Of a stretch of DNA of 36,238 bases, positions 8,224-36,238 are shown piece after piece. Below the pieces are notes generated by a model, which saw nothing but the letters and a program-made list of their open reading frames with translations, searched no databases and was not told the origin of the DNA. This stretch comes from Nitrososphaerota archaeon (GTDB taxonomy: Archaea; Thermoproteota; Nitrososphaeria; Nitrososphaerales; UBA57), in assembly GCA_027295865.1 (NCBI GenBank), contig JAPUKB010000106.1, positions 1 to 36,238 on the forward strand, read 5' to 3'. A program made the position numbers and the translations under genes. Numbering within the stretch: position 1 is the stretch's first letter; each line of letters starts with the position of its first letter.

Positions 8224-9187
8224 ACTTCCCTTCTCGTGACCTCTCGACAAGATCAATCCGTTGCCAGTCAGATACGACATTCCTCATTTGACATACAGAA
8301 CAAACAACCCCAGAGGTTGGGAATCCGCACTCCGCGCACAAGTTGATCTCCCTCTGCTGGACGTTTTCGATGTTGCTCGCCACTTTGAGGACTGATCTGA
8401 GACCGATATACTTCATTCCAGGGTGGGCCCTCTCAAGTTTGTTCAGTATCTCCCTCATTTCGGATCTTATGCTTTCATTCATATGAGGGCATGTCTCAGA
8501 TTGTAACGGTAAATTGTTGGTGAATGCGTAAAACGCGATCTCCTCTTCGTATATCTCCATGAAAGGTTTGATTCGTCTGAAAGCAAAATCAGTGTTGTGT
8601 TTGATCGCTGGATCCATCCATCTAATCCTTTCCACATCACCGCTGAATAGATTCATGAGAAAAGTCTGAAGGAAATCATCGAGATTATGACCCGTCGCAA
8701 TTACATCTGCTCCAACCTTTTGTGCGCCTATCTCAAGTGCCCTCCGACGAAATGTTCCGCATACCGTGCATGAGGCGATTCTCTTTCCCTTCCTTTTTTC
8801 TAAAACGTCGTCGAGCCCGGTTCCAAATAGCTCCTTAAACGAGACAGTAATCTGCTTCACCCCCAGCCGGGAAGATAACTCAATCGCGTTCTGAATCGCC
8901 TCGTCTCGATACCCCTCAACCCCCTCATCGACCGTTACAGCGAATAATTCTGAACCGTGCGGAATAACTATCTTGCTCAGCACATGGAGGAGAGAGAGGC
9001 TATCCTTCCCGCCTGACACTCCAACGGCCATCTTAGTACCATACTCGAGCATACCGAACTTTGAGATGGTCCTCCGTGTCTTCTCTATGATTGAATGAGA
9101 ATAGCATGGGGAGCAAAGTTTGACCCCCGAATATCTTCGCCCATACACTGCCCCCTTACCACATTTACTACACGGCCTTTCGTTCAT
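8216..9187 (-). CDS. Ncs6/TtuA family tRNA 2-thiolation protein (PP-loop ATPase with zinc fingers)
   Basis: CxxC...CxxC at N-terminus, MAVGVSGGKDSLSLLHVL PP-loop, CTVCGTFRR, ATGHNLDDFLQTFLMNL, C-terminal CAECGFPTSGVVCSVC. Confidence 0.92.
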   Translation of the reverse strand: MNERPCSKCGKGAVYGRRYSGVKLCSPCYSHSIIEKTRRTISKFGMLEYGTKMAVGVSGGKDSLSLLHVLSKIVIPHGSELFAVTVDEGVEGYRDEAIQNAIELSSRLGVKQITVSFKELFGTGLDDVLEKRKGKRIASCTVCGTFRRRALEIGAQKVGADVIATGHNLDDFLQTFLMNLFSGDVERIRWMDPAIKHNTDFAFRRIKPFMEIYEEEIAFYAFTNNLPLQSETCPHMNESIRSEMREILNKLERAHPGMKYIGLRSVLKVASNIENVQQREINLCAECGFPTSGVVCSVCQMRNVVSDWQRIDLVERSREGKSH

Positions 9188-9221
9188 CCAAGTATCCTGG
9201 GCGGAGAGCGTAAATAGGTTT

Positions 9222-9863
9222 ATGGTTCAAGGTCCGAAGACCAAACTGTTGCTACCCCCCGACCCACTGCTAGATCAGAACTTGCTCCTCTTTCTACAAT
9301 CGCTTTTCACGCTATTTGCTATTTTTGATCCAATAGGCAATCTCCCAATTCTCTTCTCTTTAACTTCTGATATGGGGGAGGCCGAGAGGAAAAAGCTCGT
9401 ACGTAAGTCATCTCTTGTTTCTTACGGCATCCTCTTGACTTTTGGTTTTCTTGGCGAGCTGCTCTTCATCCTTTTAGGAATCACGATTGCGGATTTCAAA
9501 GTAATAGGAGGAATAATCCTTCTCATCTTCTCGATTGAATATGTACTAGGGAGAGGATCGTTTAGAGTTCATGAGAGAGGCCCTAATGAAGACCTAGCAG
9601 TTTTTCCATTGGCTACCCCCCTTCTTGCGGGACCTGGTAGCATAAGTTTCGTAGTTCTGATGCCGGGCTTCCTCACCAAATTCGTTGTTGTTACACTAAT
9701 CGTCGCCATATCTTGGTTCATTTTGCACTTCGGGACTGGTCTTCTCAGATTCTTTGGGCCGCAGGGATCATCTGTAGTATCAAGAATCATGGGTCTTTTG
9801 ATTGGTGCGGTTGCGATCAGATTCATTAGAGAAGGCTTAATTGAGATTCTACTAATGGTGTGA
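9222..9863 (+). CDS. MarC family integral membrane protein
   Basis: FTLFAIFDPIGNLPILFSLTSDM and PLATPLLAGPGSISFVVLMPGF are typical MarC motifs; multiple TM helices. Internal ATG at 9222 preferred because the 9120 start would overlap the divergent upstream gene. Confidence 0.85.
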   Translation: MVQGPKTKLLLPPDPLLDQNLLLFLQSLFTLFAIFDPIGNLPILFSLTSDMGEAERKKLVRKSSLVSYGILLTFGFLGELLFILLGITIADFKVIGGIILLIFSIEYVLGRGSFRVHERGPNEDLAVFPLATPLLAGPGSISFVVLMPGFLTKFVVVTLIVAISWFILHFGTGLLRFFGPQGSSVVSRIMGLLIGAVAIRFIREGLIEILLMV

Positions 9864-9900
9864 GAATCTGCGCCGTCATGTTTTCATCTCATTCGTCATC

Positions 9901-10764
9901 TTGAGCCTCCTTATCCATTCATCTTTTGGCAGACAGATCGGGAACTCAGAAGGCCAAGTCGAAGCCGATTTTGAAACAGTGGACATTAAGGTAATTGTTT
10001 ACAGGGATGGTGTTTCAGTGATAAGCCAAAACATCACCGTGATCGACATTGTTCCACAGGTAAGTGTAGGCCTACTATCGGTGGAGGCAGAGAACGTATT
10101 GGTGGGAGACGAAGTCGGCGCTCCCCTGGGATACCAGATCCGCAACCGGACAATAATAATTGACACTCTTGGTGCCACTAGTGTATTTATCACCTATCAA
10201 ACCACCCAACTGACAGATAAGGATGGACCGATCTGGAGTTTTAATCTTAGCCTCCATAATCCTGCGAGTATAATTCTTCCAGATAGATCAACGATCGTCT
10301 TTCTTAATGAGATCCCTGATTCCATTACCACTCTTCAAAACAGAACCGCCCTGTTTGTCGGAGAAGGGGATTGGCTCATAAAGTATATTCTGCCTTTACA
10401 GATCATACCAGGGCAGGGTGAAATCGATTCAGTCTCCAGATCTGAAGATCCTTTCGCATTTGTCAACAATAACCTGTTTCTCCCCGTCATTGTCGCTGCC
10501 ATTATGATTAGTGGTATTGCTATCTATATTCGCAGGTCCGGGCGGAGCCTTCGTCATGCTTCAGTGAATCTTAGACCAGAGGAAGAAGAAGTACTCAGAT
10601 TCATCAGGGAACAAGGTGGAATGGTCTTGGAGTCGGAGTTGAGGAAGAAGTTCATTCTGCCAAAGACCAGTATGTGGCGGATGGCAAAGCGACTCGAAAG
10701 AGCCGGCCTAGTCAAGATCAACAGAGTCGGCCTCCAAAATGAAATTGAACTCGTTAGGCGGTAA
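9901..10764 (+). CDS. membrane-anchored winged-helix transcription regulator (extracytoplasmic domain, one TM, cytosolic wHTH); true start possibly upstream at CTG 9868
   Basis: Extracytoplasmic beta-rich region, TM LFLPVIVAAIMISGIAIYI, then LRPEEEEVLRFIREQGGMVLESELRKKFILPKTSMWRMAKRLERAGLVKI (wHTH). Confidence 0.75.
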   Translation: MSLLIHSSFGRQIGNSEGQVEADFETVDIKVIVYRDGVSVISQNITVIDIVPQVSVGLLSVEAENVLVGDEVGAPLGYQIRNRTIIIDTLGATSVFITYQTTQLTDKDGPIWSFNLSLHNPASIILPDRSTIVFLNEIPDSITTLQNRTALFVGEGDWLIKYILPLQIIPGQGEIDSVSRSEDPFAFVNNNLFLPVIVAAIMISGIAIYIRRSGRSLRHASVNLRPEEEEVLRFIREQGGMVLESELRKKFILPKTSMWRMAKRLERAGLVKINRVGLQNEIELVRR

Positions 10765-10807
10765 GTCCCGCGAGATTTGACCACTATCTCTAATTACATG
10801 GAGACTA

Positions 10808-11182
10808 ATGCGTAGCTCATTGGGAACGAAAATTACTGGAAGGCTCGTGTTCTCCACCTATCGCACCAAGAGGGAGGCATCAAAGATTGCTCGCAAGGCT
10901 GTATCCGACAGACTTGCAGCTTGTGCTAACATCTTTCCTATATATTCAATCTATGCCTGGGAAGGGAAAATAGAGGAGGGAATCGAGGTTATGGTTCTCT
11001 ACAAAACCACCTCAACAAAACTGAGACTGTTACGACGCTATATCCGAGACTCACACGGCTATAGAGTCCCAGAAATCGTGGACCTAGAAATGAAAAGTGT
11101 CAATAGGAGTTACCTGGAGTGGCTGGTCTCCGCAACATCATCGGACTCGGGAGTACCTCAGCAACGCCACAACACCGCCTAG
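10808..11182 (+). CDS. cutA: CutA1 divalent-ion tolerance family protein
   Basis: LVFSTYRTKREASKIARKAVSDRLAACANIFPIYSIYAWEGKIEEGIEVMVLYKTTSTK...GYRVPEIVDLEM...YLEWL. Confidence 0.92.
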   Translation: MRSSLGTKITGRLVFSTYRTKREASKIARKAVSDRLAACANIFPIYSIYAWEGKIEEGIEVMVLYKTTSTKLRLLRRYIRDSHGYRVPEIVDLEMKSVNRSYLEWLVSATSSDSGVPQQRHNTA

Positions 11183-12202
11183 CGATTCTATCTGTTTGCC
11201 TGCGTCTGTGGAATTGTCCACTAAAATGGTCTTTCCCCCGAATTTCTCGACAGAGTTCAGTAGTTCAACAACTTGTTCCTCGTTTCCAGTCTCAAATATT
11301 TTGCTCGATACAAGTAGAGACTCCACCGACCCTACGGTACTTGCCTCGTTGCTCTCTTTCACAGAGAATGTTACTCTAGTATCATCCTGCGATATTCTGG
11401 CGATTGCTGTCGCCAGGAGCTCTTGAGCACTCGCGAGCGTTGTATCTTGCATAATCTGCCTCAGTTCCTTAGATCTGAGAGAGGTGAAGACGCCATCCTC
11501 CCCAGTGACATCAAGTCCATCAATTACCAAAACCTCCCGGGCAATTTCTTTGTCTGCTCCCTCTATGAAATTAGCTAAAGCTTTCTTTACTTCACCGGGG
11601 CCGACACAGACTATCTTTACACCCTTTTCGTAGATATTTTTTATCGAATTCGTAATCCTAGCAAGATACGCCTGAATGGATACATTCTTGGTTGTGTATA
11701 GTTTTCCTCCTAGGCCCGAGTTAATCGTGGGGAAGATCTTCAAGTGAGTGCCTATCACCTTCCCGATCCCAGCTTCTCTTCTGTCTAGGGCCACTATTAT
11801 GATTCTGTCTATTGGAGACGAGCTCTTCTTCAGAAGGCTCATGTGAAAGTCGGGAAATACATCCTTTCTTAGCGCAAATGTGTTTCCTAGTGAGAGTGTG
11901 AATGAGTGCCGCGAAGATTTTGTGACGAAATTCTCCGAAACATCAAGAATCTTGCCCGAGACCCTAAGGCGGTCAATGCTGCTGTCCAGCTTAACCTTCT
12001 CAACCTCTATGCTCAGCCTTACCCTAATTCTTTCCCCTTTATCCGGTCTTGCGAAGTCGTTGTTTTCCTTGATGACCCTGCTTGTATCTCCCGTAAGGAT
12101 ATCATCTGGTGAAATTATTCTCCTAAGCGTCCAAAGGTCTTCAGGACTTTCTGGTGTGATTGTGGCTAGTCCTGGCCTTCTTTGGAGCCGATGGATTCGC
12201 AT
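11138..12202 (-). CDS. pelA: Pelota / aPelota ribosome rescue protein
   Basis: N-terminal EDLWTLRRIISPDDILTGDTSRVIK; central and C-terminal FSVKESNEASTVGSVESLLVSSKIF and GKTILVDNSTDAGKQIESLGGVVALLRY. Confidence 0.9.
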   Translation of the reverse strand: MRIHRLQRRPGLATITPESPEDLWTLRRIISPDDILTGDTSRVIKENNDFARPDKGERIRVRLSIEVEKVKLDSSIDRLRVSGKILDVSENFVTKSSRHSFTLSLGNTFALRKDVFPDFHMSLLKKSSSPIDRIIIVALDRREAGIGKVIGTHLKIFPTINSGLGGKLYTTKNVSIQAYLARITNSIKNIYEKGVKIVCVGPGEVKKALANFIEGADKEIAREVLVIDGLDVTGEDGVFTSLRSKELRQIMQDTTLASAQELLATAIARISQDDTRVTFSVKESNEASTVGSVESLLVSSKIFETGNEEQVVELLNSVEKFGGKTILVDNSTDAGKQIESLGGVVALLRYSRVR

Positions 12203-22386: not shown

Positions 22387-23640
22387 GTGGGCAAAACCCT
22401 TGCCGAGAAGATTGTCGGCACACACACAGAGAGACCCGTTGTGGCTGGAGAGAGTGTGATTGCCAAGGTAGACTATGCGTTTACCCATGATGCCAGCGGG
22501 CCTTTGGTAGTGAGTCAGCTGAAAGAGCTAGGGTCAGACAAAGTCTTCGATCCCAAGAGAGTAATTGTATTCATCGATCACGCTGTACCGAGTCCCAGAA
22601 GGGAAAACTCAAATGATCAGGCTCTTCTTAAGATCTGGGCCGAATCTCGGGGAGTAAATTTCCATGGGGCGGGGACAGGGATTTGTCACCAAGTGCTCGC
22701 GGAACGCTATGCTTCCCCGAATACTCTGATAGTCGGCACGGATTCTCACTCCGTTATGGCCGGAGCCCTAGCTTCGTTTGCAACAGGTATGGGCGCCACA
22801 GACGTAGCAGTCTCCATGAGTTTGGGAAAAACCTGGCTCAGAGTGCCTGAAACTCTCCGTTTCATTCTGAACGGTACACTTCCTTCTGGAGTTTATGCCA
22901 AGGATGTGATACTCTACATTATCGGCATTTTGGGTGGAGATGGTGCAACTTACAAAGCTATGGAATTTTCTGGAAGTGTAGTGGACAAGATGGAAATGCA
23001 TGAAAGACTGACTTTGTCAAACATGGTCGTAGAGGCAGGGGCCAAGGTAGGCCTGATCGCATCTGACTCGAATACTAGGAGGTATCTCGAGACTAGAGGT
23101 AGAGAGGAGACCTTTTTGGAGATTCATCCAGATAGTGATGCGCACTATGAGAATACTTTCGAAATTACTGCAACCGATCTTAGTCCCATGGTTTCCTTCC
23201 CACATAGTGTAGATAATGTCAAAAGTATGGAAGAGATTGGTGAGGTGAAGATTAACGAGGTCTTTGTTGGTAGCTGCACCAATGCAAGACTTGAGGATCT
23301 CCAGATTGTTGCCTCCATCCTAGATGGTAAGCAAATCGATTCGAATGTTCGACTTATTGTCACACCCGCTTCAGGAGAGACCTATGCTACGGCGGTCAAA
23401 GATGGAACTATCTCGACCCTTTTGGATGCGGGTGCACTTGTGACGCCATCAGGATGCGGTGCGTGTTTCGGAGCCCTGGGTGGAATACCTGCTGATAACG
23501 AGGCCATCTTCACGACAACTAATAGAAATTTCATTGGAAGAACTGGAAACCCATCCGCTTCCACCTATCTTGGTTCACCTGCGACTGCTGCGGCAACTGC
23601 ACTAAGAGGTATGATAGCTGATCCACGGGAAGTTATCTAG
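22387..23640 (+). CDS. leuC: 3-isopropylmalate dehydratase / homoaconitase family, large subunit
   Basis: FIDHAVPSP, GICHQVLAER, VGTDSHSVMAGALASFATGMGATDVA, FVGSCTNARLEDL, PSGCGACFGALGGIPADNE. Substrate not determinable from sequence alone. Confidence 0.93.
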   Translation: MGKTLAEKIVGTHTERPVVAGESVIAKVDYAFTHDASGPLVVSQLKELGSDKVFDPKRVIVFIDHAVPSPRRENSNDQALLKIWAESRGVNFHGAGTGICHQVLAERYASPNTLIVGTDSHSVMAGALASFATGMGATDVAVSMSLGKTWLRVPETLRFILNGTLPSGVYAKDVILYIIGILGGDGATYKAMEFSGSVVDKMEMHERLTLSNMVVEAGAKVGLIASDSNTRRYLETRGREETFLEIHPDSDAHYENTFEITATDLSPMVSFPHSVDNVKSMEEIGEVKINEVFVGSCTNARLEDLQIVASILDGKQIDSNVRLIVTPASGETYATAVKDGTISTLLDAGALVTPSGCGACFGALGGIPADNEAIFTTTNRNFIGRTGNPSASTYLGSPATAAATALRGMIADPREVI

Positions 23641-23641
23641 A

Positions 23642-24133
23642 ATGTCGGGGAGAGCTTGGAAATTCGGTGATGGAATAAGTACCGATAACATTGCTCCAGG
23701 TCGATACTTTCATCTTAGGTCCAACCTGCCAGAACTCTCGAAGCATTGCCTCGAGGACGCAAGAGAGGATTTTACTTCTAATGTAGCAGAAGGAGACTTT
23801 GTGGTTGCAGGGAAGAATTTTGGCCTGGGCTCTAGCAGGGAACACGCTCCTATTATCATCAAGATGAAGGGAATACGTGCTATCATTGCCAAATCTTTTG
23901 CTCGTATCTTCTTTAGGAATTGCATAAACATCGGACTTCCAGCAGTGATGTTGGATACAGACGAGATCCAGGATGGAGATCGCCTGGAAATCGATCTAAG
24001 TGGAGGAAAAGTCATTGATCATTCTACCGCCAAGAACTTGAAATTTCCCCCTCTACCTATTGAAATGACCAGCATTCTCAGAGAGGGTGGTCTGATCCCA
24101 TTTGTTAAGAAATACGGGGACCTCAGATTCTAA
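23642..24133 (+). CDS. leuD: 3-isopropylmalate dehydratase / homoaconitase family, small subunit
   Basis: WKFGDGISTDNIAPGRY, DFVVAGKNFGLGSSREHAP, ARIFFRNCINIGLP. Confidence 0.93.
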   Translation: MSGRAWKFGDGISTDNIAPGRYFHLRSNLPELSKHCLEDAREDFTSNVAEGDFVVAGKNFGLGSSREHAPIIIKMKGIRAIIAKSFARIFFRNCINIGLPAVMLDTDEIQDGDRLEIDLSGGKVIDHSTAKNLKFPPLPIEMTSILREGGLIPFVKKYGDLRF

Positions 24134-24143
24134 CCAAGGAAAT

Positions 24144-24371
24144 CTACTTCAGTTTAAGGAAGTCTTTCAACTGCGTCATCATTAGATCTCGATGCTCTTT
24201 GGTCGAAAGGTCGACTTTATATTCATTCATTAGTTTGATCTGTAGATCTTCCCACTCCTTCCAGCATTCCGCGCAGACCCCACTCATTATCCTCTTCCCA
24301 AGCTCGCCCACATATGGAATGTCTTGTGGGGGTTCTCTCTGATTTCCACACCTACCGCATTTTACAGTCAA
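24144..24371 (-). CDS. YggX-like Fe(2+)-trafficking / oxidative damage protection family protein with extra CxxC pairs
   Basis: CGRCGNQREPPQDIPYVGELGKRIMSGVCAECWKEWEDLQIKLMNEYKVDLSTKEHRDLMMTQLKDFLKL resembles the YggX consensus PPYPGELGxRIY...AWxxWxxxQTMLINEYRLN...FLExEMxxFLF; TTG start. Confidence 0.65.
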   Translation of the reverse strand: MTVKCGRCGNQREPPQDIPYVGELGKRIMSGVCAECWKEWEDLQIKLMNEYKVDLSTKEHRDLMMTQLKDFLKLK

Positions 24372-24463
24372 TCAGTTTAGAAGCGTGGCGCGCACAATTA
24401 ATCCTTTCTACGAACGTTCAAAGAGACGAATAGTTAAACGGATATCGGGATATAGTAATCCTC

Positions 24464-24943
24464 ATGGAGACAGCTAGAGATGCATTGAGGCGTGTGCTGG
24501 GTACCTATGCCACGGGTGTTTCGATAGTGATGACCAAATCAAGGGGGGCGATTCATGGCCTGACTGTTAATTCTTTTACCTCGGTATCACTAGAGCCTCC
24601 GCTGATCCTAGTTTGTATCGATAGGCTGAATGCGACATATCCGCTAATAAAAGAGAGTGGGATTTTCAGTGTAAACATTTTATCCAAGATTCAGGAATCA
24701 CTTTCGAGATTGTTTTCGGATCCAGGGAACAAGTCAAGTATGTTACAAGGTTTGGAATATAGGCAAGAGGTAACTGGTGCGCCGATCATCATGGGTGTTC
24801 TAGGCTTCCTCGATTGTAGCGTGGAAGCGACATACCCAGCTGGTGACCATGACATCTTCTTAGCCAAGGTCGAGAAATTTGGATTGGGTGAAGATGGTGA
24901 TCCTCTGCTCTATTATAGAGGAGGATATCATGGTCTTCGCTGA
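24464..24943 (+). CDS. flavin reductase-like FMN-binding protein
   Basis: METARDALRRVLGTYATGVSIVMTKSRGAIHGLTVNSFTSVSLEPPLILVCIDRLNATYPLIKESGIFSVNILS. Confidence 0.92.
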   Translation: METARDALRRVLGTYATGVSIVMTKSRGAIHGLTVNSFTSVSLEPPLILVCIDRLNATYPLIKESGIFSVNILSKIQESLSRLFSDPGNKSSMLQGLEYRQEVTGAPIIMGVLGFLDCSVEATYPAGDHDIFLAKVEKFGLGEDGDPLLYYRGGYHGLR

Positions 24944-24952
24944 ACGAAAATA

Positions 24953-25462
24953 ATGATTTCATCCAAGAAGAAGGCGCGGATTGCTGTATGCGGAAGTGAC
25001 GAGGCAATCTCCCCGAAAGTCGAGGCCGTTGCCAATCGAGTGGGAAGAAAAATAGCAGGGAATGGGGGAATATTGATCTGCGGAGGAAAGGGTGGCGTGA
25101 TGGAAGCAGCATCCAGGGGTGCCAAGGAGGCTAGCGGGGTTACGGTAGGAATACTCCCGGGTCCTGACTCGGAGGAAGCGAATCAGTACATTGACATTCC
25201 CATACCGACCTCGTTTGAGAGAGCTAGAAACTTCATAGTTGTAAGAGCAGCACAGGCAGTAATCGGGATCTCAGGAGGATGGGGTACCCTCTCGGAAATT
25301 GCGATGGCTATGAATCTCGGATTGCCAGTCATTCTAATTAGAGGTACAGGAGGAGTAGCTGACTGGCTGGCTAAGAATCCTTTGAGAATAAATCACAAGA
25401 CGTACACATTAACGGATGGGGCCGACGAGGCTGTCGAAAAGGCCATGGGTCTGATCCGATGA
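24953..25462 (+). CDS. TIGR00725/LOG-like Rossmann family protein
   Basis: IAVCGSDEAISPKVEAVANRVGRKIAGNGGILICGGKGGVMEAASRGAKEASGVTVGILPG...GGWGTLSEIAMAMNLGLPVILI. Confidence 0.85.
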   Translation: MISSKKKARIAVCGSDEAISPKVEAVANRVGRKIAGNGGILICGGKGGVMEAASRGAKEASGVTVGILPGPDSEEANQYIDIPIPTSFERARNFIVVRAAQAVIGISGGWGTLSEIAMAMNLGLPVILIRGTGGVADWLAKNPLRINHKTYTLTDGADEAVEKAMGLIR

Positions 25463-25485: not shown

Positions 25486-25497
25486 AGATATATATTG
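25486..25497 (+). promoter_or_regulatory. TATA-like promoter element for the tubulin-like operon
   Basis: aagatatatatt ~25-30 bp upstream of the GTG at 25518, suggesting a (near-)leaderless transcript. Confidence 0.55.
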
Positions 25498-25517
25498 GAT
25501 TCAGATGATCCAAGATC

Positions 25518-26468
25518 GTGAGTTTAATTAGGGTTTACGCTAGCTCTGCTTTGGCAATCTGGCTCCTTTTCGCATTACTAACGGCGGGTTTTCTTCCTAC
25601 AGCTTTTGGTCAAGCTGCATCGCCTGCGATAATAACCGATCTCGTCGTGAGGGATCCCAATGGGAACGACGTGTCAAGTGAGCCGTTGGTCGCCGGAGGT
25701 GAATATACCGTAACATTCTCTATTGCCATTGGTGCCACCCTTGTTGATCGGATATTGTTAACCACAAACCTAGAACGTACCAGGGACGTGTTTTGGACCC
25801 TGGAAAGCAATTATGATGGCGTCGACTTAAACACCTGGACCCCAGGTTCCCCGGCCATTGACTTCGAAGCTCGGAGTGGAACCGCAGACTTCACACTGAC
25901 GGGCCGCATACCTGAGTTCATAACGGAGAAATTCTGGGACGAGAATGGAAGGACCATACACGCCATACAGCGATTTCAACTCCTGATTGTCTCGCTTGAT
26001 TCGAACAAAGAGATACTAGATCTCCGAGAGGCATCAATCACGGATCAGATAATCATCCGTTACGGTAATTTGCTACAGGAAAAGCGGACCATACTCGATA
26101 GCGTCCAGATGGACCCTCAATATGCAGCTCTCGCCCGAAGCATATTAGCTGAATCTGAGGGGTTGACGGCCGCGGGCTATTATGATGCGGCGATAACATT
26201 ACTCGAAAGTATCCCAAGCTCAGGGTTTCCTACACCGCCGGTGGTGACAAACATCTTTCTGGGATCGACTCTTGGATTGGCCGCAATTTCTGTTATCCTG
26301 GTGCTACTCTTTCTGAGGGCCAATCGAGGAAAGGGGTTCATTTCAAGACGCGTGGAAGATGAGGCTAAGAAGCTTGATTTATTACTTGTGAAAGCTACAA
26401 GAGTTGATAAAGCTCTTTCGACTGAGATTGAAACCATTAAAAGGGAATTACAGAATCTAGTTGAATAG
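25518..26468 (+). CDS. signal-peptide / single-TM protein with extracytoplasmic domain and cytosolic helical tail
   Basis: N-terminal signal AIWLLFALLTAGFLPTAFGQA; TM VTNIFLGSTLGLAAISVILVLLFLRANRG; C-terminal helix SRRVEDEAKKLDLLLVKATRVDKALSTEIETIKRELQNLVE. Confidence 0.75.
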   Translation: MSLIRVYASSALAIWLLFALLTAGFLPTAFGQAASPAIITDLVVRDPNGNDVSSEPLVAGGEYTVTFSIAIGATLVDRILLTTNLERTRDVFWTLESNYDGVDLNTWTPGSPAIDFEARSGTADFTLTGRIPEFITEKFWDENGRTIHAIQRFQLLIVSLDSNKEILDLREASITDQIIIRYGNLLQEKRTILDSVQMDPQYAALARSILAESEGLTAAGYYDAAITLLESIPSSGFPTPPVVTNIFLGSTLGLAAISVILVLLFLRANRGKGFISRRVEDEAKKLDLLLVKATRVDKALSTEIETIKRELQNLVE

Positions 26469-26482
26469 TGATCAGTGATTAG

Positions 26483-29185
26483 ATGGCAAATTATGCAAGC
26501 TCAATCCAGCTCGTGGGATTAGGAGGTACCGGCGCAAACGTTATTGAAGCGTTCGTAAGAAATCGGAAGGCCCTAATTCCCCTTTTGAAGAAAGAAGGGG
26601 TCAGAGTTTCGTTGCTTGCTCTGGACGTGGCAGATCATGACATCCGTAGTCTTGAGGCCGCCTATAAGAATCTCTCAGACCACCTTAAAGAAACTGGAAT
26701 CCCTGCGGATAAGATTAACCTTGTCGCAAAGACTGTGAAATTTCCGACACCGGAGACGATGTTCGATTTTGTTAGTAACTATCCGGAGTTCCTTGAAAGA
26801 GAAGGGGCGAAGGTTCCTGAAAATTATTCACCTTGGCTGACGTCGTCAATGGAAATACCACCACTTGCTGGAGGGGTCGGCCGAAAACGCGCTCTCTCGA
26901 AAGCTATCTACGGACTGAATTATCATCACCTTAAGCTCGTAGATAGCTATATGGATCTTTTCAAAGAACACGTATTCACTTCAACCCTTCAACCGATAAT
27001 TTTTCTGATCTACGGGTTTGGAGGAGGGACCGGGAGCGGAATAGCGCTCGATTTTACAAGACACTTGAGGAAGAAGGTTGGAAGCGGAATTCCAATAATC
27101 GGTCTAGGAATCCTCCCATGCGGAGGAGATGATCCACCTGCCAAAGGCGCTTCATGCTACGCGGCGCTAATCGAGCATGAGATGCTAATATCAAGAGAAC
27201 ATAACCTGCGTGTCACTAATGCATATTCTAAAGCCTATCAGAATCCATTTACTGCGATGCTGATGATGCCTTTGGGTCCGGCTTACAGTCGGACTGGGAG
27301 CGTGGTGGATGCACGAAAGCTCATTGATGACGCTATCGTCGATATACTTATGAAATCTTTGAGTTTCGATCTCGCGGACCTATTCAGCAACATCGGATCG
27401 AGTGTTGATCTGGGAGGTAAATGGGTCCATTTGATTTCGACCCTCAAGGTATCTTATCCAGTAGCGGAATTTATTGAGCTTACCAAGATCTACCTGGAAA
27501 AACTTGAGAGACTACGAGAGTTAAGACGGGAAAAGACGGAGATCTATGCTGGGCCGTCACGCGAGGAAGATGGAGGATTGCACAAGATACTATCCTCGTG
27601 CCTAGACGAGTTGAAGGCCGTCTACAAGAGACTCGCCATAGAACGAAATACATATGATGAGGTTAAGTTCGAATCAGATCTCAAGAATTTTATCACAGAG
27701 GGAAGGTCACTAGAGTCTGATCTTGTTATGCACTTGAAAGGCGTTGAGGAATCGGTAAAGTCTCAGGTGCAAGATCTTTCTCGGTCCGTGTTGTCGATCG
27801 GATTGGATGCGCCCGAGGGGACGGTTGAGGCAAGGATTAGGATGTTAGTTGAAGAGATTGTCGGATTAACTACTAACATTTCTCGGACATATCAGAAATT
27901 CCAGAGCCGTGTTAAAGACATTGCAGAAGACCTGCGAGGAATGGTTCCGAGCGCGCAGCAGCTGACCCCTCGTCAAGTTCAGATACTCAATGACGCCGTT
28001 GGTCTCGTTGAATTGATAGACAGGTACATAATTGGACTTAGGTTATACCTTCAGACAAATAGTCTTGCAGATAAGCTCAACAAGCAGCTAGCAAAAGCGG
28101 AAAAGACTGAGTTACACCAAGAGCTTGCAACGACAGTCCAAAGAATCCTCAATCCAGAACTTGTAATAGACTTTGCACTTCTTTCCTCCCTCCTATACCC
28201 AGTTGCTTCGGAGTTGAAGACTCTCGATTCTCGACTCAGTGATTGTAGAGTCATGAAGAGAGTCCTCACGGAAAGACTCGAGAAGCAACGGAATGAGGTA
28301 GAGTCATTGGAAATTAAGCAGAAGAGTAGGCAGCTCGAAATGGACAGGATTAGTGGTCAAGCCAGGAAGATTCGGTTTGGTTTCCTCGGTCCGAAGAAGA
28401 AATACATGGAAGGTAAGGCTAAGGAATTGGAGCACGAGATAAGAGTCCTCACAGCAGAGGGTGAGGTAGTTGTCGGCGAAAAAGAAAGATTAGAGACCAA
28501 GTTAAGCGAATATGGTCACGTTGAAAGCAAATTTGACGTAAACTCAACGTATAGAAAACTTGTCGCTGAAGCGCACAGCCTGGACGGGACATATTATGAG
28601 AAGATGAGCGCGTCCATGAAAGATAGGGGCTACTATGACAGAGTTGCGGAATTAACTGATGTCGAACAAATGAAAATCATGCAGAGGGTCCTAATGGAAG
28701 ACGAGGATTCTCTTACTGATGAAAATATCCTCAGAGAGATTGTAGACAGACGACACCTCAAGGAATATCTGGTCGGCGCCTTGGGCATTTTCAAGATCCC
28801 AGCGACACTTGGTCTAACTCCTGAATACCGAACTGATTACATTTGGTTCACCGTCGTGAGCCCGAGGGGCATTTGGGACAAAGACCTGGAATCTGAGTCA
28901 AAGGCCATACTCTCAGGCTACGTTAAACAAGACGCCTCGAAAAGTATCTACATAAGAGAAGTAGACTCTGACGATCCGTGGACAATGCGCTTCTTGATAA
29001 TTGCTGCTAAGGCCACCCCAGAGCTCCTAGAATCATACAAGGAAATGTCCATCCTTTATGGACAAACTACGCCGGGAGAGAGATTGCTTTCACACTCATT
29101 CCTCCTTGAACAGGGCGTCCATGTAACCAAGGGGGGAAAGACTACGCCAGTCATAACCCTTGAAGACACAAATCGGGCTGTCTAG
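26483..29185 (+). CDS. tubulin/FtsZ-superfamily GTPase with long coiled-coil insertion (Tubulin_2-like)
   Basis: T1 IQLVGLGGTGAN; T3-like PPLAGGVGRKRALSKAI; T4 tubulin signature YGFGGGTGSGIALDF (GGGTGSG at 27020-27040); T7-like SFDLADL (27362-27382); extensive heptad-like helices ~res 330-780; C-terminal domain resembling the FtsZ activation domain. Confidence 0.85.
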   Translation: MANYASSIQLVGLGGTGANVIEAFVRNRKALIPLLKKEGVRVSLLALDVADHDIRSLEAAYKNLSDHLKETGIPADKINLVAKTVKFPTPETMFDFVSNYPEFLEREGAKVPENYSPWLTSSMEIPPLAGGVGRKRALSKAIYGLNYHHLKLVDSYMDLFKEHVFTSTLQPIIFLIYGFGGGTGSGIALDFTRHLRKKVGSGIPIIGLGILPCGGDDPPAKGASCYAALIEHEMLISREHNLRVTNAYSKAYQNPFTAMLMMPLGPAYSRTGSVVDARKLIDDAIVDILMKSLSFDLADLFSNIGSSVDLGGKWVHLISTLKVSYPVAEFIELTKIYLEKLERLRELRREKTEIYAGPSREEDGGLHKILSSCLDELKAVYKRLAIERNTYDEVKFESDLKNFITEGRSLESDLVMHLKGVEESVKSQVQDLSRSVLSIGLDAPEGTVEARIRMLVEEIVGLTTNISRTYQKFQSRVKDIAEDLRGMVPSAQQLTPRQVQILNDAVGLVELIDRYIIGLRLYLQTNSLADKLNKQLAKAEKTELHQELATTVQRILNPELVIDFALLSSLLYPVASELKTLDSRLSDCRVMKRVLTERLEKQRNEVESLEIKQKSRQLEMDRISGQARKIRFGFLGPKKKYMEGKAKELEHEIRVLTAEGEVVVGEKERLETKLSEYGHVESKFDVNSTYRKLVAEAHSLDGTYYEKMSASMKDRGYYDRVAELTDVEQMKIMQRVLMEDEDSLTDENILREIVDRRHLKEYLVGALGIFKIPATLGLTPEYRTDYIWFTVVSPRGIWDKDLESESKAILSGYVKQDASKSIYIREVDSDDPWTMRFLIIAAKATPELLESYKEMSILYGQTTPGERLLSHSFLLEQGVHVTKGGKTTPVITLEDTNRAV

Positions 29186-29229
29186 AGCTGACTTAAACCT
29201 GTAATATAGGGCAGAGCTGTAGAGGGCTC

Positions 29230-31683
29230 TTGAGCGATCCGAAGATCATAGAACCAGATCAGACAAAGGATTCGCAGTCCGCATCTGTTATCGAGCGTTT
29301 TGGGCTACGACCATCACGCAGCATAGAGGATCCGATTGAGAGGGAACGCGAGTATCGCAAGACACTTGGACGACTCCTAATTTCGGCCCTTATTCTTCTA
29401 ACCACGACATTGCTTCTTCTGGTAATACCACTCTATCCTACTCCAGTGATTATTCTCTTTGGAATATTATCCGCACTCATTGGCTTTAGGGTTCCGATCG
29501 CCGGTTTCTTGATAGGGACGCTGGTATCTGCGCCGGCCTATGCATATCAAGCAGGTATTCCTCTCTGGTGGCTGTTCGTTTACATCTTCTTTATCGGCGC
29601 CTTCGCCGCCCGATCTGTGAGCGAGCCTCGAAATGTCATTTCCCCGCTGATGGGTCTTTTTGCAGGGGCGTTGGGTCTCACTCCATTGTACTTCGCAGCC
29701 ATCCCTCTTATGTTGATGGTTGCGCTACTCGAAGAGAGACGCAAACTGTTTGATCACCTGGGAATGGTTTTCATGTTTATCATGATATTCATCCCGTTCC
29801 ATGGCGTCGCCTTTTCCGAGAATTTGGTACTGACACTAGGCGACCAGATCAATTCAATGAGGCCTCAACAGATATACGACGCAATGAACGCTCTTCCTCT
29901 TCCACTCTTCACTCAGATCTTCTATACTCCGAATCCGTCCCTTACTTCTTTGGACATTCCAACGCTTCAAGCGACGTTCTCTTCCGCATTTGGAGCGAGT
30001 GAATTCTTCCATCCGTACTTATTCCTAATAATTGATAGGCTAATAATTCTCTACGTTCCCATCTTGTTAGCCCTATCCTTCTCCTTCATCTCAGTCGTAG
30101 ATCGCTTTTGGCCATGGTTAGTAGAACGGGGAATCGATGTTAGAAAGGTACTGAAATACTCATATGCACCTACTCTCCTAGTCGGAACATTCCTTTTTCT
30201 TGGCGCGTTACAAGCGACGAGTGGCACTCTTAGGTACTATACGAGTCTAAATCCGATCGCCACTGAAACGGCCGCCCTTTCCGGCGGCGTATCTTTTCTT
30301 GCCATAACAGTATCCGCAGTCTCGTTCGGATCGGCAATGGTCATCGGCTCGCTCAGATTGAGGAGAAGGGAAGAGGTTGCATTTCTCTCGTCAGGCCTAA
30401 TCTCGAAAGGGAGAAAATTGGCAGATAGCATTGCTTCATTTTTTACTAGTCTGAAGTTGATTGAAAGATCATCACCTGGGATCGACCTCTCTACAGAAAA
30501 TGCCTCCGCGAGTAAGTATCAGGAGCAGGTCCGAATCACTCTCGGTGGGATAGGCACTATGTCCTACAAAACCCTCCGGGAGAGAACTACTAGCCTATCG
30601 CAAATCAACGAGGAGCAAGAAAGAATTGCGTCTAGTACGTACCATCGGCTATATCAGTACCAGGTGGATAAAGTAGTGAAATATCAGAACGTCGTTTCTA
30701 CCATTACTCGGTTTGGAATTGAGCCTGGGGGCCTGCCGAACGTTAATTCAATTAGTGTCTCAGATCTTGCCGAGATGGGCCATGAGGAATCCCTCAAACG
30801 TCAAGAAGAACTGAATATCAAATTCCTCAAGGTTGCCGAGATAACAGTCGAGTTCGCAGCTAGGCTGATTGAGGCGATTAGGAAAGATTTTGACATCAAA
30901 TCAGATCCGACCGCCGTCGATGTAGCGAGAAACTTCCTTGCCGAGTCCGCCGGAGAGAGAGCCCTCGATCCGATAGTTACAAGCATCAGCTCGCTCAGTA
31001 ACCGATATCTCTCAGACAGTCATAAGATCGCCTCCAGTGTCCGAAAGCTTATACAGAGAATGCTCGAAATATACAATGCACATATTCTTCCCTTAAATGA
31101 ATCGCTAGGGAGGGAGGCCTCCGTCTCAAAGACTGCACAGGTCGCGATTGAACTCTCTAACCATGTTCATCAGCTGGAGAAACCAAAAGGGATTATCTAC
31201 CTCCCAGATATAATGCTCAAGCTTGAGTACCTCGAAATCGGGACAAGATCGATTCTTGGAGAATTATTGACCCTATTGAGAGACTTCGAGAAGCTCAACG
31301 ATTCGAGAGTATCTGAAGAATTCAACTGGGGGAAAAATACACAGCTTGTAGGTGACATAGATTCCTCCCTTCGTTTCCTTGATGACCAGGAAGCGAACGA
31401 AATAGACGAGCGGATAGATAACATAGAATACGTGATCAAGACTATAGAGGGAGCTGCGGCAACTCTCAAGAAGTACATAACCATGAATGAGTTCATCCTG
31501 AACTACCCAAATATGGAGCCTCTGATAATCTCAAAGCTCCATAAATCGGGTCATGTTAGTGCAAGGGAGCTACCAGTCCGACCCCGATATGCCTCACAAT
31601 ACCTCAAGCTATTCGCGATTAATCGCTATGGAGAGGTTGTCTTCGACAGCAAATACAGTAAGATACAGAGAAGAAAGAAGTAA
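29230..31683 (+). CDS. large polytopic membrane protein with ~430-aa cytosolic helical C-terminal domain
   Basis: About 9-10 hydrophobic segments within residues ~45-390 (e.g. LLISALILLTTTLLLLVIPLY, LLALSFSFISVVDRF, LLVGTFLFLGALQAT), then a long hydrophilic, helix-rich tail; TTG start; 44 nt downstream of the tubulin-like gene. Confidence 0.75.
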   Translation: MSDPKIIEPDQTKDSQSASVIERFGLRPSRSIEDPIEREREYRKTLGRLLISALILLTTTLLLLVIPLYPTPVIILFGILSALIGFRVPIAGFLIGTLVSAPAYAYQAGIPLWWLFVYIFFIGAFAARSVSEPRNVISPLMGLFAGALGLTPLYFAAIPLMLMVALLEERRKLFDHLGMVFMFIMIFIPFHGVAFSENLVLTLGDQINSMRPQQIYDAMNALPLPLFTQIFYTPNPSLTSLDIPTLQATFSSAFGASEFFHPYLFLIIDRLIILYVPILLALSFSFISVVDRFWPWLVERGIDVRKVLKYSYAPTLLVGTFLFLGALQATSGTLRYYTSLNPIATETAALSGGVSFLAITVSAVSFGSAMVIGSLRLRRREEVAFLSSGLISKGRKLADSIASFFTSLKLIERSSPGIDLSTENASASKYQEQVRITLGGIGTMSYKTLRERTTSLSQINEEQERIASSTYHRLYQYQVDKVVKYQNVVSTITRFGIEPGGLPNVNSISVSDLAEMGHEESLKRQEELNIKFLKVAEITVEFAARLIEAIRKDFDIKSDPTAVDVARNFLAESAGERALDPIVTSISSLSNRYLSDSHKIASSVRKLIQRMLEIYNAHILPLNESLGREASVSKTAQVAIELSNHVHQLEKPKGIIYLPDIMLKLEYLEIGTRSILGELLTLLRDFEKLNDSRVSEEFNWGKNTQLVGDIDSSLRFLDDQEANEIDERIDNIEYVIKTIEGAAATLKKYITMNEFILNYPNMEPLIISKLHKSGHVSARELPVRPRYASQYLKLFAINRYGEVVFDSKYSKIQRRKK

Positions 31684-32661
31684 TTATGCCAGGAAACTCG
31701 TTTCTCTCAGAGAATCCTGCAACGCATCCATGAGATATACGTTAAATTCGGATGCCATCTCCGCAAATCGCGCTTCGTTGCCTTCCGTTTTCAGATCCTT
31801 GAAAAGATCTTGGCTGAACTCGACCCCAAGAATAGGGATAAGCTTCTTTGCACTCGACAGAGCAGTCTGTTTCTCGCTTTCGAGTGCGTTCTCCTCAAAT
31901 GCAATACCCTCATTGACAGCAAGGGAAAAGAGGAAGAGGTAGGAGAGGGAATCCCAGTTAGGATTTTCCTGGTGGATGTAATCTTTCCATTCGCTTGCAG
32001 TAGGAGTAGTGGAGCTCAACTGATTCCCCACTCTATCAAGGAACCCGGAAATAGCTTCACCTACTTTTTCCGGCGACCTACTCTCCACCGATGTCCTTAT
32101 TAGATCTATTTCGTTGCTGAAATCGAATGAGTTCTCTTCTGAAAGACTGGCCGTTGTTCTTGAAAGCCTCTCAAATATGTCCTCTGCCCGATCCCAATCC
32201 TCAAATCCAAGGCCTCGCAACATGGACAGGGAGAGTGAAGTCAATTCCCAGACTTTTGACCCAGTGTCCAAGACGTACGAGAGGTATTTTGCTTTCGCCA
32301 TTTTCGAATCCTTCTCAGAAAGTTCGCTCTTATCTCTAATCAATTTCCTTTCACCTAGCATGGACGAAATAGTCTGGACTATCTCAATCGCATCAGTTGG
32401 ATTATTGGGAGTCACTTTGTGAGAAATAGTTTCTTTCTTCCCCTCATGAACTATCTTGACTCCGAAATCCTGAAGTTGCTCAACCGAAATGAGTGCCCGT
32501 GCATCAATTGTAACCTCTGAGATAACCTTGCTCGAGAGGATTCCTTTTTTCTTCTCAAAAATAATTCTTCGATCAGTAAGTACGAGCCGCCCCATACCCT
32601 TGCCTTCTAACTTGACTGACTCGTATTTTGAGATGATCCGCTCTGGAGTCTCGGAGCTCAC
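31684..32661 (-). CDS. PH/GRAM-like (bPH) domain protein with helical C-terminus
   Basis: PERIISKYESVKLEGKGMGRLVLTDRRIIFEKKKGILSSKVISEVTIDARALISVEQLQDFGVKIVHEGKKETISHKV matches the beta-strand pattern of GRAM/bPH domains (LTDRRIIF). Confidence 0.65.
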   Translation of the reverse strand: MSSETPERIISKYESVKLEGKGMGRLVLTDRRIIFEKKKGILSSKVISEVTIDARALISVEQLQDFGVKIVHEGKKETISHKVTPNNPTDAIEIVQTISSMLGERKLIRDKSELSEKDSKMAKAKYLSYVLDTGSKVWELTSLSLSMLRGLGFEDWDRAEDIFERLSRTTASLSEENSFDFSNEIDLIRTSVESRSPEKVGEAISGFLDRVGNQLSSTTPTASEWKDYIHQENPNWDSLSYLFLFSLAVNEGIAFEENALESEKQTALSSAKKLIPILGVEFSQDLFKDLKTEGNEARFAEMASEFNVYLMDALQDSLRETSFLA

Positions 32662-32754
32662 GACGCTTTCCTCGTCATGTTAATCTATAAGTCATATGGC
32701 TCATAGAGGTGGCTTACCGAAAACTATTATCATTGTATTCACTTAGGGACGGGG

Positions 32755-34119
32755 ATGGCGGCCGAACAGGTCCATAAGGGAGGATTCACACTTTGTCCCA
32801 GTGGGCATAAGAATGCTAGAGGGCTCGCCACGTGCGCAATATGCTCCCTGCCCCTCATTGAGTTTAAAGAGGAGTTGGCTTCGGCCGTAAAATTGATTAG
32901 ATCTCTGACCGCTGTTTTTTCCCGATCTAAGGAGGTTGTCAAATTTGGGCTCGGAGGCGCAGGATCTAAGCTCCTTCTCAATCTCGTTGCTGGTCAAGCG
33001 AATAGAGTTTCGTCGATTAATTTTCTGGCCATCGGAGCAGATGAGGGGGATGAAAAAGTCTTCAAGGACTGGTTATCCGAAGTTCATACCGAGGATGAAA
33101 CCGACAGAATTTACAGGACAGGACTTCATCGACTGAAAAGGTCAAAGGACAAGGGAGGTGGTGTCTGGAGCAGCACTTTGAAGAGTGCTACGAAAGACAA
33201 ACAACTTGATGATAAGATTAGGCGGATAGGCATCAGCGAAAGCGTTGAAGAACAGATTTCGATCTTCTTCGCTCCACTGGGGGAGAATATCACATCTGGT
33301 GTCGGGCCGCTTATCCTTGCGAAGATTAAGAACATAAACCCTGATGCATCAGGAATCGTCTTCGCCATCTTGCCCTCTGAAGAGGATACCGATCAGACCC
33401 ACTTCAATGCCTACTGTGCACTATCGCGCTTCCTAAAATCCGATGAACGCCTTGCCGACATTTTGATAGTTTCACAGGGAGACGCACTTCGAAAAATGAT
33501 TGGTATTGATAGGTCCGGGCGGAGGCTAAGTTCAGATATTCTTATCCCGCGTATCGTAGATCTCATCTTCGGACAAAATGAAGTAGACTTAGCAGAGATG
33601 GTACGACTTGCCCGATCATACAGAGTGCAAGTATTCTCTCCAGTCTACGCGTACGGAAGGAGCTACGAGATCTATGACAAGATCGGAAATATCCTCGATC
33701 ATGCGATCTCTTTCCCCCTCTCGCCTTTTGATTATGATTCAGTAGTCTTGAGCATTGCTATTGCAAGAGTGCCTGAAAAGATCGTAGACAAAGTCGGGGA
33801 GAAGCGACTTCAAGAACAGTTCAATGAATGGAATCGAAAGCGATTTCCTGTCCTCAAGGGAACGTCTTTGAAGGTTGTAAGGGTTAATGAAAACTCTGAT
33901 CGAATCGACGTACTCCTGCTTCTCGGGGGATCAAGCATATCAGATATTATCAGGCCACACAAGGATCCGTACAAGAGGTTCAGAGCCTATATCGAAAACC
34001 TTGACCTCTGGGGTGAATTTGCTCTCACCGAAGATCAATTAAAGAAAATTCAGAGCGGAATAGATACCTATGATAAGGGGATGGCAAGGCTGATACGTAA
34101 GACCGCTTCTGCTACTTAG
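32755..34119 (+). CDS. degenerate tubulin/FtsZ-superfamily protein with N-terminal zinc ribbon
   Basis: Zinc-ribbon-like CPSGHKNARGLATCAICSLPL; T1-like VVKFGLGGAGSKLLLNLV; the T4-equivalent is degenerate (FFAPLGENITSGVGPLILA); T7-like NEVDLAEMV at 33577-33603. Confidence 0.7.
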   Translation: MAAEQVHKGGFTLCPSGHKNARGLATCAICSLPLIEFKEELASAVKLIRSLTAVFSRSKEVVKFGLGGAGSKLLLNLVAGQANRVSSINFLAIGADEGDEKVFKDWLSEVHTEDETDRIYRTGLHRLKRSKDKGGGVWSSTLKSATKDKQLDDKIRRIGISESVEEQISIFFAPLGENITSGVGPLILAKIKNINPDASGIVFAILPSEEDTDQTHFNAYCALSRFLKSDERLADILIVSQGDALRKMIGIDRSGRRLSSDILIPRIVDLIFGQNEVDLAEMVRLARSYRVQVFSPVYAYGRSYEIYDKIGNILDHAISFPLSPFDYDSVVLSIAIARVPEKIVDKVGEKRLQEQFNEWNRKRFPVLKGTSLKVVRVNENSDRIDVLLLLGGSSISDIIRPHKDPYKRFRAYIENLDLWGEFALTEDQLKKIQSGIDTYDKGMARLIRKTASAT

Positions 34120-36238
34120 CCCGACGTCCCCCAACCTCCATGATTCTGGACAATCCTCCCTGAACGCCAATCGCAACTGATCCGACTATGGCTAGAACAG
34201 AAGTCGTTATCAAAGCTACGGTAGAATCAGATCTGAATAGGTTTACGCTCACAATTAGGTCTCGGTCGGATACCAGTCTGGTTAGCCGCTGGGATTCTCC
34301 TCGATATCTCACGGTAACTTCATATTCACCTGGAACTAAATTAGTGAAAGTACTCTCCTCACTTACCCTGGTGTTGTTTCCAAGTGGTCCCTGGACCACA
34401 AGATCTGCACGGCCAATTTTCTGATTGAATGGATCCCTTATGTCGACTGTAAGTTTATAGGTCTTCAGATAGATTAATAGAACCCGTTCTGACATTTCAA
34501 TCGTTCCGATTTCCTCGCTATGTTCGTAGCTCATTCGAATGACTACATCGAGGCCCATGTCGATGACTTCAGCATTGGCAATCTTGCCATCTAAGACGAC
34601 CAATATTCTATCTAAGCTGGAGTCTATCTGATTTATGAGAGACTTGGAAAACGTTATGTTTATTGTACCTATAGTCCCTTGGCGGCCGCCAAGAGTTAGA
34701 CGCAACGCGTCTATCCGCTCCTCCACTCGCTCTTCAAGAATTGTAGAGTTTGAAGAGAGATAGATTATCTGATCTGGAGAAAACTGAACTTCTTGTACTT
34801 GGGTTATGAGGAATCGGTCTGGCTCTCCCGAAGACATTGATGAGGTTATCCTGTGCTCAGCTCTGGTCTTGGTAACTAGCGATGATTCCATAGAGCTTAG
34901 GATTGGCGTCCTTGTCGAAAGCCTTAGAACGTTTAGCCGATAGTCAAGACCTAGCTGCCCCTCAACAATCAGCGATATATCGCCGTCTTCGAAACCTTCT
35001 TCAACTAAAATTAGTTGCCCGACCGGTGCAAGAGTTTTTACATCCGTGGACTGTGGATCGAATGGTGTCCAGAGGAAGGAGAAAGGTATGCCACTGGCTA
35101 CAACATCCTCTCCAGAGATAATGTTAATTTCGACGAGTCCGTCAACAAACAACAAATACCCTGTCAGTTGTTCAGTTGCCATCATTCTATAATCCTGAGT
35201 GATATCGAGGAGCTGACCATCGTAGGTGATCGCCGTGAGCACCCCGCCCCAGGCTGGTAACAGATCGTAGACGAATTTTGGGTCAGTCAGCAAAGAATCA
35301 ATGTTCTCTGGTAGAGCAGCCCCTTTCCCATCTAAAAGTCCCAACATTGGATCAACGTGGACCCAGTCTTCTAACTTTATCTCTACCCAAGAATGGGCGA
35401 GGACAAAGGGCTCATCGAGAAGAGGGGAGGAATTCATAGCACCTATTACGGGACGAGCCTCGATCTCGAGGGATCTCATTAAGCCCCCAAACAGAATTTG
35501 AAATGTCGTAGAGTCTCCCTCTATCAAGTGAGTTCCCTCGACTCCCCCCCTGGCTTCGAGTTCTGAGATCATGCGCACGACATCTCTTTGGGGAAGGATC
35601 TCTTCTGAGAGGCTACTATGGCTCAACACAAAATCCAGGATCGCTCGGGCCTGCTGCATTTTCGAGGAATTGGCACTCAGACTGTTTGCTACAAGGATCC
35701 GTTCTGCAAATTCTCTAACACTCTCATCGGGCTGCATTAGTAGATCTATATTCGGTAGGAATTTAGCGCCTATCGCCATTCCGATTGCCCGGACTCTATT
35801 CTTCTCCTCAACGGAAAAGACTCGTAATTGGACAGAGATGGTGTCAGGCCCACCCGCTGTTTCTTCTATGAACACCTCGAAAGTTACCAGGCCTTCCCTG
35901 GCATAGAGCAACTCAAAGCCCACGGTTCTAGTCTCCCCAGGCCCCAGAAAGATGATTTGCGACGTCGGGAAAACTGTAACTCCATCAGAATTCCTAGTGA
36001 GGAGCTTTATCTCTCCCGCTCGTTCTATTGTGTTTGCAACTGTCACCCACGCATAGGTCGACTCGCCCTCAAATGCCGTTTTGGATTCGGTGACTTCCAG
36101 ATCTATGATTCCTACTTTTGGCAAGAGAACAAAATGAGCAGTAATCACTAAAGGTCCATCTACAATTATGCGAACGGGATTATCCTCACTCGTATTTCCA
36201 TCAAAAATCCAAAGACTGAAAACATAATCACCTATCCT
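34112..36238 (-). CDS. transglutaminase-like membrane protein, 5' end beyond the right edge of the window
   Basis: EGDSTTFQILFGGLMRSLEIEARPVIGAM...FVLAHSWVEIKLEDWVHVDPMLG = transglutaminase core with Cys replaced by Ser. C-terminal TM (STVALITTSVLAIVGSVAIGV). The frame stays open to 36238 (…IGDYVFSLWIFDGNTSEDNPVRIIVDGPLVITAHF…), so the 36148 start in the track is internal. Confidence 0.8.
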   Translation of the reverse strand, partial: RIGDYVFSLWIFDGNTSEDNPVRIIVDGPLVITAHFVLLPKVGIIDLEVTESKTAFEGESTYAWVTVANTIERAGEIKLLTRNSDGVTVFPTSQIIFLGPGETRTVGFELLYAREGLVTFEVFIEETAGGPDTISVQLRVFSVEEKNRVRAIGMAIGAKFLPNIDLLMQPDESVREFAERILVANSLSANSSKMQQARAILDFVLSHSSLSEEILPQRDVVRMISELEARGGVEGTHLIEGDSTTFQILFGGLMRSLEIEARPVIGAMNSSPLLDEPFVLAHSWVEIKLEDWVHVDPMLGLLDGKGAALPENIDSLLTDPKFVYDLLPAWGGVLTAITYDGQLLDITQDYRMMATEQLTGYLLFVDGLVEINIISGEDVVASGIPFSFLWTPFDPQSTDVKTLAPVGQLILVEEGFEDGDISLIVEGQLGLDYRLNVLRLSTRTPILSSMESSLVTKTRAEHRITSSMSSGEPDRFLITQVQEVQFSPDQIIYLSSNSTILEERVEERIDALRLTLGGRQGTIGTINITFSKSLINQIDSSLDRILVVLDGKIANAEVIDMGLDVVIRMSYEHSEEIGTIEMSERVLLIYLKTYKLTVDIRDPFNQKIGRADLVVQGPLGNNTRVSEESTFTNLVPGEYEVTVRYRGESQRLTRLVSDRDLIVSVNLFRSDSTVALITTSVLAIVGSVAIGVQGGLSRIMEVGGRRAK

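Follow-up and report, generated by a model that had tools for sequence, protein, structure and literature searches.

The window, by which we mean the whole 36,238-nucleotide stretch analysed, is the entire contig C9 of an archaeal genome that is 84.9% complete. Its closest named relatives are Thaumarchaeota/Nitrososphaerales MAGs (UBA223, ASW8_bin1, B1T1B5, and others), with ASW8 having been grouped with heterotrophic marine Thaumarchaeota (PMC7300363). We found six adjacent open reading frames, here called A, T1, M, PH, T2, and TG, all of them present as described in the original prediction, with coordinates and strands rechecked on the DNA:

A, 25518-26468, + strand: protein with a signal segment, extracytoplasmic domain, one transmembrane segment, and predicted cytosolic coiled-coil tail
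T1, 26483-29185, + strand: tubulin/FtsZ-superfamily GTPase of the Tubulin_2 kind (Pfam, structural model, Foldseek, motifs)
M, 29230-31683, + strand: polytopic membrane protein with a helical tail
PH, 31684-32661, - strand: possible PH/GRAM-like N-terminal domain (a weak assignment) and helical C-terminal part
T2, 32755-34119, + strand: second tubulin-superfamily protein, with an N-terminal zinc ribbon (PF00091, PDB profile matches)
TG, 34112-36238, - strand: exported transglutaminase-like protein, its 5' end cut by the contig (Transglut_core, 1.7e-6)

The first three genes are separated by gaps of 14 nt (A-T1) and 44 nt (T1-M), and an A/T-rich stretch, TATATATT, is located upstream of A, both as predicted and both seen on the DNA. 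Further upstream (22387-25462) are aconitase-type dehydratase subunits, a flavin reductase, and SLOG-family genes, which also adjoin A in several members of the window's family, where the dehydratase is one gene of ~750 amino acids as opposed to two in the window.

T1, at 900 amino acids, passes the Pfam Tubulin_2 (PF13809) cut-off (2.9e-10, 40.4 bits versus 27), with a match covering only positions 2-206 of the 356 in the Pfam model, as compared with positions 1-354 and 133 bits for a classical member (L128), and it scores 16.4 bits against the NCBIfam ftsZ model TIGR00065 (cut-off 295.2). An AlphaFold model of moderate quality (15 homologues, pLDDT 79, pTM 0.66) places strands at 6-13, 42-48, 78-84, 170-178, 205-211, and 258-263, followed by helix H7 (275-292), a strand (315-324), helices from 327 to 712, and C-terminal strands at 787-793, 822-828, and 834-844. 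We read this order as a complete FtsZ/tubulin topology, including H7 and the C-terminal domain, with a predicted coiled-coil insertion of ~390 residues (~327-712) within the latter. The Foldseek matches listed for the model are to CetZ, FtsZ, tubulin, TubZ, and PhuZ (probability 1.00, E from 3.7e-5, TM-score by target of at most 0.48), with CetZ/FtsZ structures 4b45 and 3zid at the top. The proposed tubulin-like GTPase with a coiled-coil insertion thus holds up, and structure prediction, which had been put forward as a check, gave an FtsZ/tubulin topology for T1. At the motif level, T1 carries a GGGTGSG loop (180-186) and, directly after H7, a T7-like FDLAD (295-299), which we take to match the catalytic NxDxxD T7 loop of FtsZ in position and spacing; FDxxD is present in all 39 aligned T1 homologues, among which the T4 loop is invariant, as is the acidic pair of the T7-like motif. 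Two T1 variants were seen elsewhere. At one locus (L118, G876:C1:1424500-1444400), T1 appears as two ORFs in different frames (9014-10267 and 10306-11670), broken inside the coiled-coil insertion and still lying between A and M, which reflects a frameshift or else a T1 naturally made in two pieces. At another (L106, G620:C6, 9408-12290), a T1-clade protein of 960 amino acids has neighbours that include Cdc6 and an ABC transporter.

Hydropathy places a signal segment (12-30) and a transmembrane segment (246-264) in A, making it bitopic, and about ten transmembrane helices in the N-terminal half of M (residues ~35-375), followed by a helical tail of ~440 residues; T1, PH, and T2 have no transmembrane segment by the same measure. 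The description of A as signal-anchored and of M as polytopic with a long helical tail agrees with these results. The coiled-coil tail of A, ~50 residues long and predicted to be cytosolic, shows higher conservation than the ectodomain (0.36 versus 0.28), and the basic residues that follow the last transmembrane helix of M suggest that its tail, too, is cytosolic. Profile and structure searches returned no significant known family or fold for A and none for M. Candidate matches to a Wzt-like ABC domain for A (5hno, E 0.025), and to FUSC-like or MASE10 models for M, were dropped as not significant. For PH, the PH/GRAM-like assignment is weakly supported, by matches that all fall below threshold (GRAM 0.029, bPH_3 0.041, CheF-arch 0.056). 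In other Nitrososphaeria (L012, L019), a zinc-ribbon protein of ~200 amino acids lies directly upstream of A (L012, 10845-11441; L019, 7406-8041) and an exported protein of ~930-1165 amino acids adjoins M.

The second tubulin-like protein, T2, belongs to the same superfamily: PF00091 matches all 14 T2 members (best 1.3e-13), although the window's copy itself falls below the curated cut-off, which Chloroflexota and some other copies exceed. A T2 profile searched against the PDB matched Asgard tubulin B2 (2.8e-8), TubZ 4xcq (6.4e-8), and also BtubB, within 3e-8 to 6e-8. The N-terminal zinc ribbon (CPxGHxN...CxxC) is a conserved feature of T2 copies from the window's family, from other Nitrososphaeria, and from Chloroflexota, with none seen in those of families f25 and f81. 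These results agree with the earlier view of T2 as a degenerate tubulin-like protein with a zinc ribbon. The degeneracy concerns the nucleotide loop, which reads PLGENITSG in the window; Chloroflexota copies have the loop intact, those of other Nitrososphaeria nearly so, and the window's family and f25/f81 each have it in degenerate form, a pattern that suggests that it was lost twice.

Within the window's family, all six genes occur in unchanged order. Beyond it, A-T1-M, mostly with T2, is found, differently arranged, in a number of Nitrososphaeria families as well as in the further Thermoproteota families f25, f31, f81, f21, and f42. Dehalococcoidia have all five genes on a single strand as A-T1-M-PH-T2, abutting or overlapping, with PH kept between M and T2. 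A lies directly upstream of T1 at nearly all T1 loci, and the phyletic pattern of M is that of T1: among 300 Nitrososphaeria, M occurs only in genomes with T1, save for one weak match (G051). There are exceptions, in that one genome (G620) has T1 with none of A, M, PH, and T2 close by and no M detected elsewhere in the genome, a second T1 copy in G323 has no recognisable A, T2 was not detected in G232, G079, and G876, and neither T1 nor M was found in a relative that is 92% complete (G006). Overall, four to five genes are kept together in many uncultured archaea and some wall-less bacteria, and this co-conservation, on which the original prediction had staked its reading, extends far beyond chance. 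The view of the six genes as one set needs trimming in one respect, as TG, found in no family but the window's, is a family-specific accessory outside the conserved core. It does match Transglut_core, in line with the transglutaminase-like label it had been given, and runs off the contig end (relatives are ~1450-1480 amino acids); since the Cys of the Cys-His-Asp triad is Ser in all aligned family members, it is probably not an active transglutaminase. Apparent TG matches at two other loci were rejected, being Pro/Thr-rich low complexity in L125 and failing to align at the active site in L024.

Evolutionarily, the Chloroflexota T1 sequences join the window's family with support of 99/98, inside Thermoproteota diversity (the tree being rooted at midpoint, for drawing only). 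The same grouping appears in the trees of M (96) and T2 (89) and is not rejected by that of A (p 0.37). From this joint inheritance, Dehalococcoidia apparently acquired the cassette in one piece from the archaeal lineage to which the window belongs, with the direction, archaea to bacteria, deduced from the nesting of Chloroflexota T1 within Thermoproteota. Carriers are rare among the bacteria: 10 of 294 sampled Dehalococcoidia genomes have T1 (one further weak match was to classical FtsZl1), as does one of 400 genomes drawn across Chloroflexota. The contigs are bacterial, as the cassette adjoins dnaE in one (L122) and shares another with a Dehalococcoidia-type glnA (L030), and these two genes, together with the occurrence in ten separate genomes, led us to reject cross-domain bin contamination. 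In CP070819 (bin1158; L040, L131; G315:C1), the cassette lies in three places, near 647, 809, and 979 kb, as fragments with overlapping ends inside T1; these are probably assembly joins, and we dropped this record as a finished bacterial genome with the cassette.

PBP transpeptidase and MurA are both missing from all ten Chloroflexota with T1, as compared with classmates, in which PBP transpeptidase is present in 11 of 20 and MurA in 9 of 20 (one-sided Fisher tests, 0.003 and 0.012, respectively, with kinship among genomes ignored). An earlier study inferred a single loss of peptidoglycan in Dehalococcoidia (PMC10284905), and SAR202 members have S-layers instead (PMC11994032). Given this probable single ancestral loss, which the association may reflect, and the uncorrected kinship, the link between T1 and wall-lessness is suggestive only.

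Taken together, we hold it to be fairly probable that A, T1, and M, usually with T2 and in some lineages with PH, constitute one membrane-attached cytoskeletal apparatus. Mechanistically, T1 would bind GTP at its GGGTGSG loop and polymerise head to tail, each active site being completed, in the manner of FtsZ and tubulin, by the FDxxD T7 loop of the neighbouring subunit, and the T1 coiled-coil insertion would project from the filament to bundle filaments or to reach partners. A, through its conserved tail, and M, through its helical tail, would tie the polymer to the membrane, with A also reaching the outside of the cell. T2 may serve as a partner subunit (a cap, nucleator, or copolymer) whose nucleotide loop was lost in some lineages, and PH may be an adaptor for a lipid or a subunit. 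The job of such an apparatus would likely be to do mechanical work on, or to organise, the membrane and envelope of peptidoglycan-less cells, as opposed to routine division. A fuller and more tentative scenario, possible though doubtful, is that of a widespread and so far undescribed two-tubulin membrane skeleton native to Thermoproteota that was passed as a five-gene unit to peptidoglycan-less bacteria and does mechanical envelope work in wall-less cells.

How far this differs from known systems depends most on FtsZl1, for which Makarova and Koonin (2010) could not identify T6-H7, and left filament formation open (PMC2875224). T1 shares with FtsZl1 an N-terminal FtsZ-like GTPase domain, a GGGTG(S/T)G loop, a long coiled coil and helical parts, and membrane-protein neighbours, and most FtsZl1 operon partners were described as lineage-specific and often membrane proteins (PMC2875224), so that the module could simply be the FtsZl1 operon, doing what FtsZl1 does. 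We regard this as unlikely. A vWA-domain gene is found in the majority of FtsZl1 operons (PMC2875224), as it is beside a classical FtsZl1 that we used as a positive control (G402), whereas VWA_2 had no match near T1 in the 21 carrier genomes searched, in keeping with the absence noted originally; nor do the genes that recur in the conserved set include a P-loop GTPase, Ser/Thr kinase, or OmpA. With a clade profile, T1 members score about 640-1656 bits, in contrast to 28 for an f42-type protein and 17 for a classical one. T1 also differs in its identifiable H7 and T7, which the 2010 study could not find in FtsZl1, in the insertion of its coiled coil into the C-terminal domain, and in its second tubulin-like gene, T2, and fixed partners, A and M, which are conserved across two domains of life instead of being lineage-specific. 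By sequence, then, T1 appears to be a branch of its own within the Tubulin_2/FtsZl1 kind, equipped with separate membrane partners and set apart by the missing vWA gene and the large score gap; its score over the Tubulin_2 cut-off and its FtsZl1 architecture keep it from being a wholly new kind. Of the different membrane-coupling solution that had been proposed, the membrane partners, A and M, and the lack of vWA are borne out, while the GTPase itself sits in a known superfamily. Two proteins initially drawn into the T1 clade by an iterated profile (L128, L129) belong to a different family by a clean profile. The second (G680:C1, 7552-10707) is a 1051-residue Tubulin_2 protein (5.6e-17, domain from residue 203) that shares with T1 this domain and, in the form FDLDD, the FDxxD motif after the GTP loop, but has a 200-residue N-terminal extension and PKD and MG2-like neighbours, with none of A, M, and T2 found next to it, and resembles the Sulfolobales-type FtsZl1 SSO1376 as described in PMC2875224.

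Other relatives are more distant. CetZ and FtsZ, despite being the best structural matches of the T1 model, differ in lacking its 900-residue length with the ~390-residue insertion and its dedicated membrane operon, and T1 falls short of the TIGR00065 cut-off. TubZ/PhuZ and the Asgard and Prosthecobacter tubulins resemble T2 by its profile matches (4xcq, tubulin B2) but differ in that the partners of T1 and T2 are membrane proteins, the cassette lies among chromosomal housekeeping genes, e.g., flavin reductase in the window and dnaE in L122, and T2 has a zinc ribbon. A role in plasmid partition was considered and judged unlikely. A tubulin-superfamily GTPase with membrane anchors could also be the cell-division apparatus of the carrier lineages, the more so as murein-less hosts need an unusual divisome, but we consider this very improbable: other genes of the FtsZ family are retained in the hosts, FtsZ and CdvABC are both present in heterotrophic marine Thaumarchaeota (PMC7300363), and the distribution is patchy, to the point of T1 and M being missing from G006. 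Further FtsZ/CetZ-like proteins are encoded on other contigs of the genome, C107 (L020, G000:C107:4000-23000, at 8712-9875) and C51, independent of the module. Rather improbable, too, is that T1 and T2 are filament-free, GTP-switched scaffolds of a membrane transport or signalling complex with M as its transporter or channel. M is indeed large and polytopic with a fold without known match, the T2 nucleotide loop is lost in several lineages, and transport or signalling was suggested for FtsZl1 by a reviewer of the 2010 paper (PMC2875224), but T1 keeps invariant both its T4 loop and the acidic pair of its T7-like motif, which together make up an interface functional only between subunits.

We thus return to the membrane-attached apparatus as our preferred reading. 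A search of the open-access literature returned no description of the A-T1-M-T2 set, and the module looks like a membrane-attached skeleton so far undescribed in the open-access papers searched. As the T1 branch has H7, T7, and partners conserved across two domains, the filament question is directly testable here with a defined gene set. A putative cytoskeletal operon has apparently crossed from archaea to bacteria that lack a peptidoglycan wall and, if the fuller scenario given above is true, this would be a membrane-cortex system of prokaryotes that has passed from one domain of life to another.
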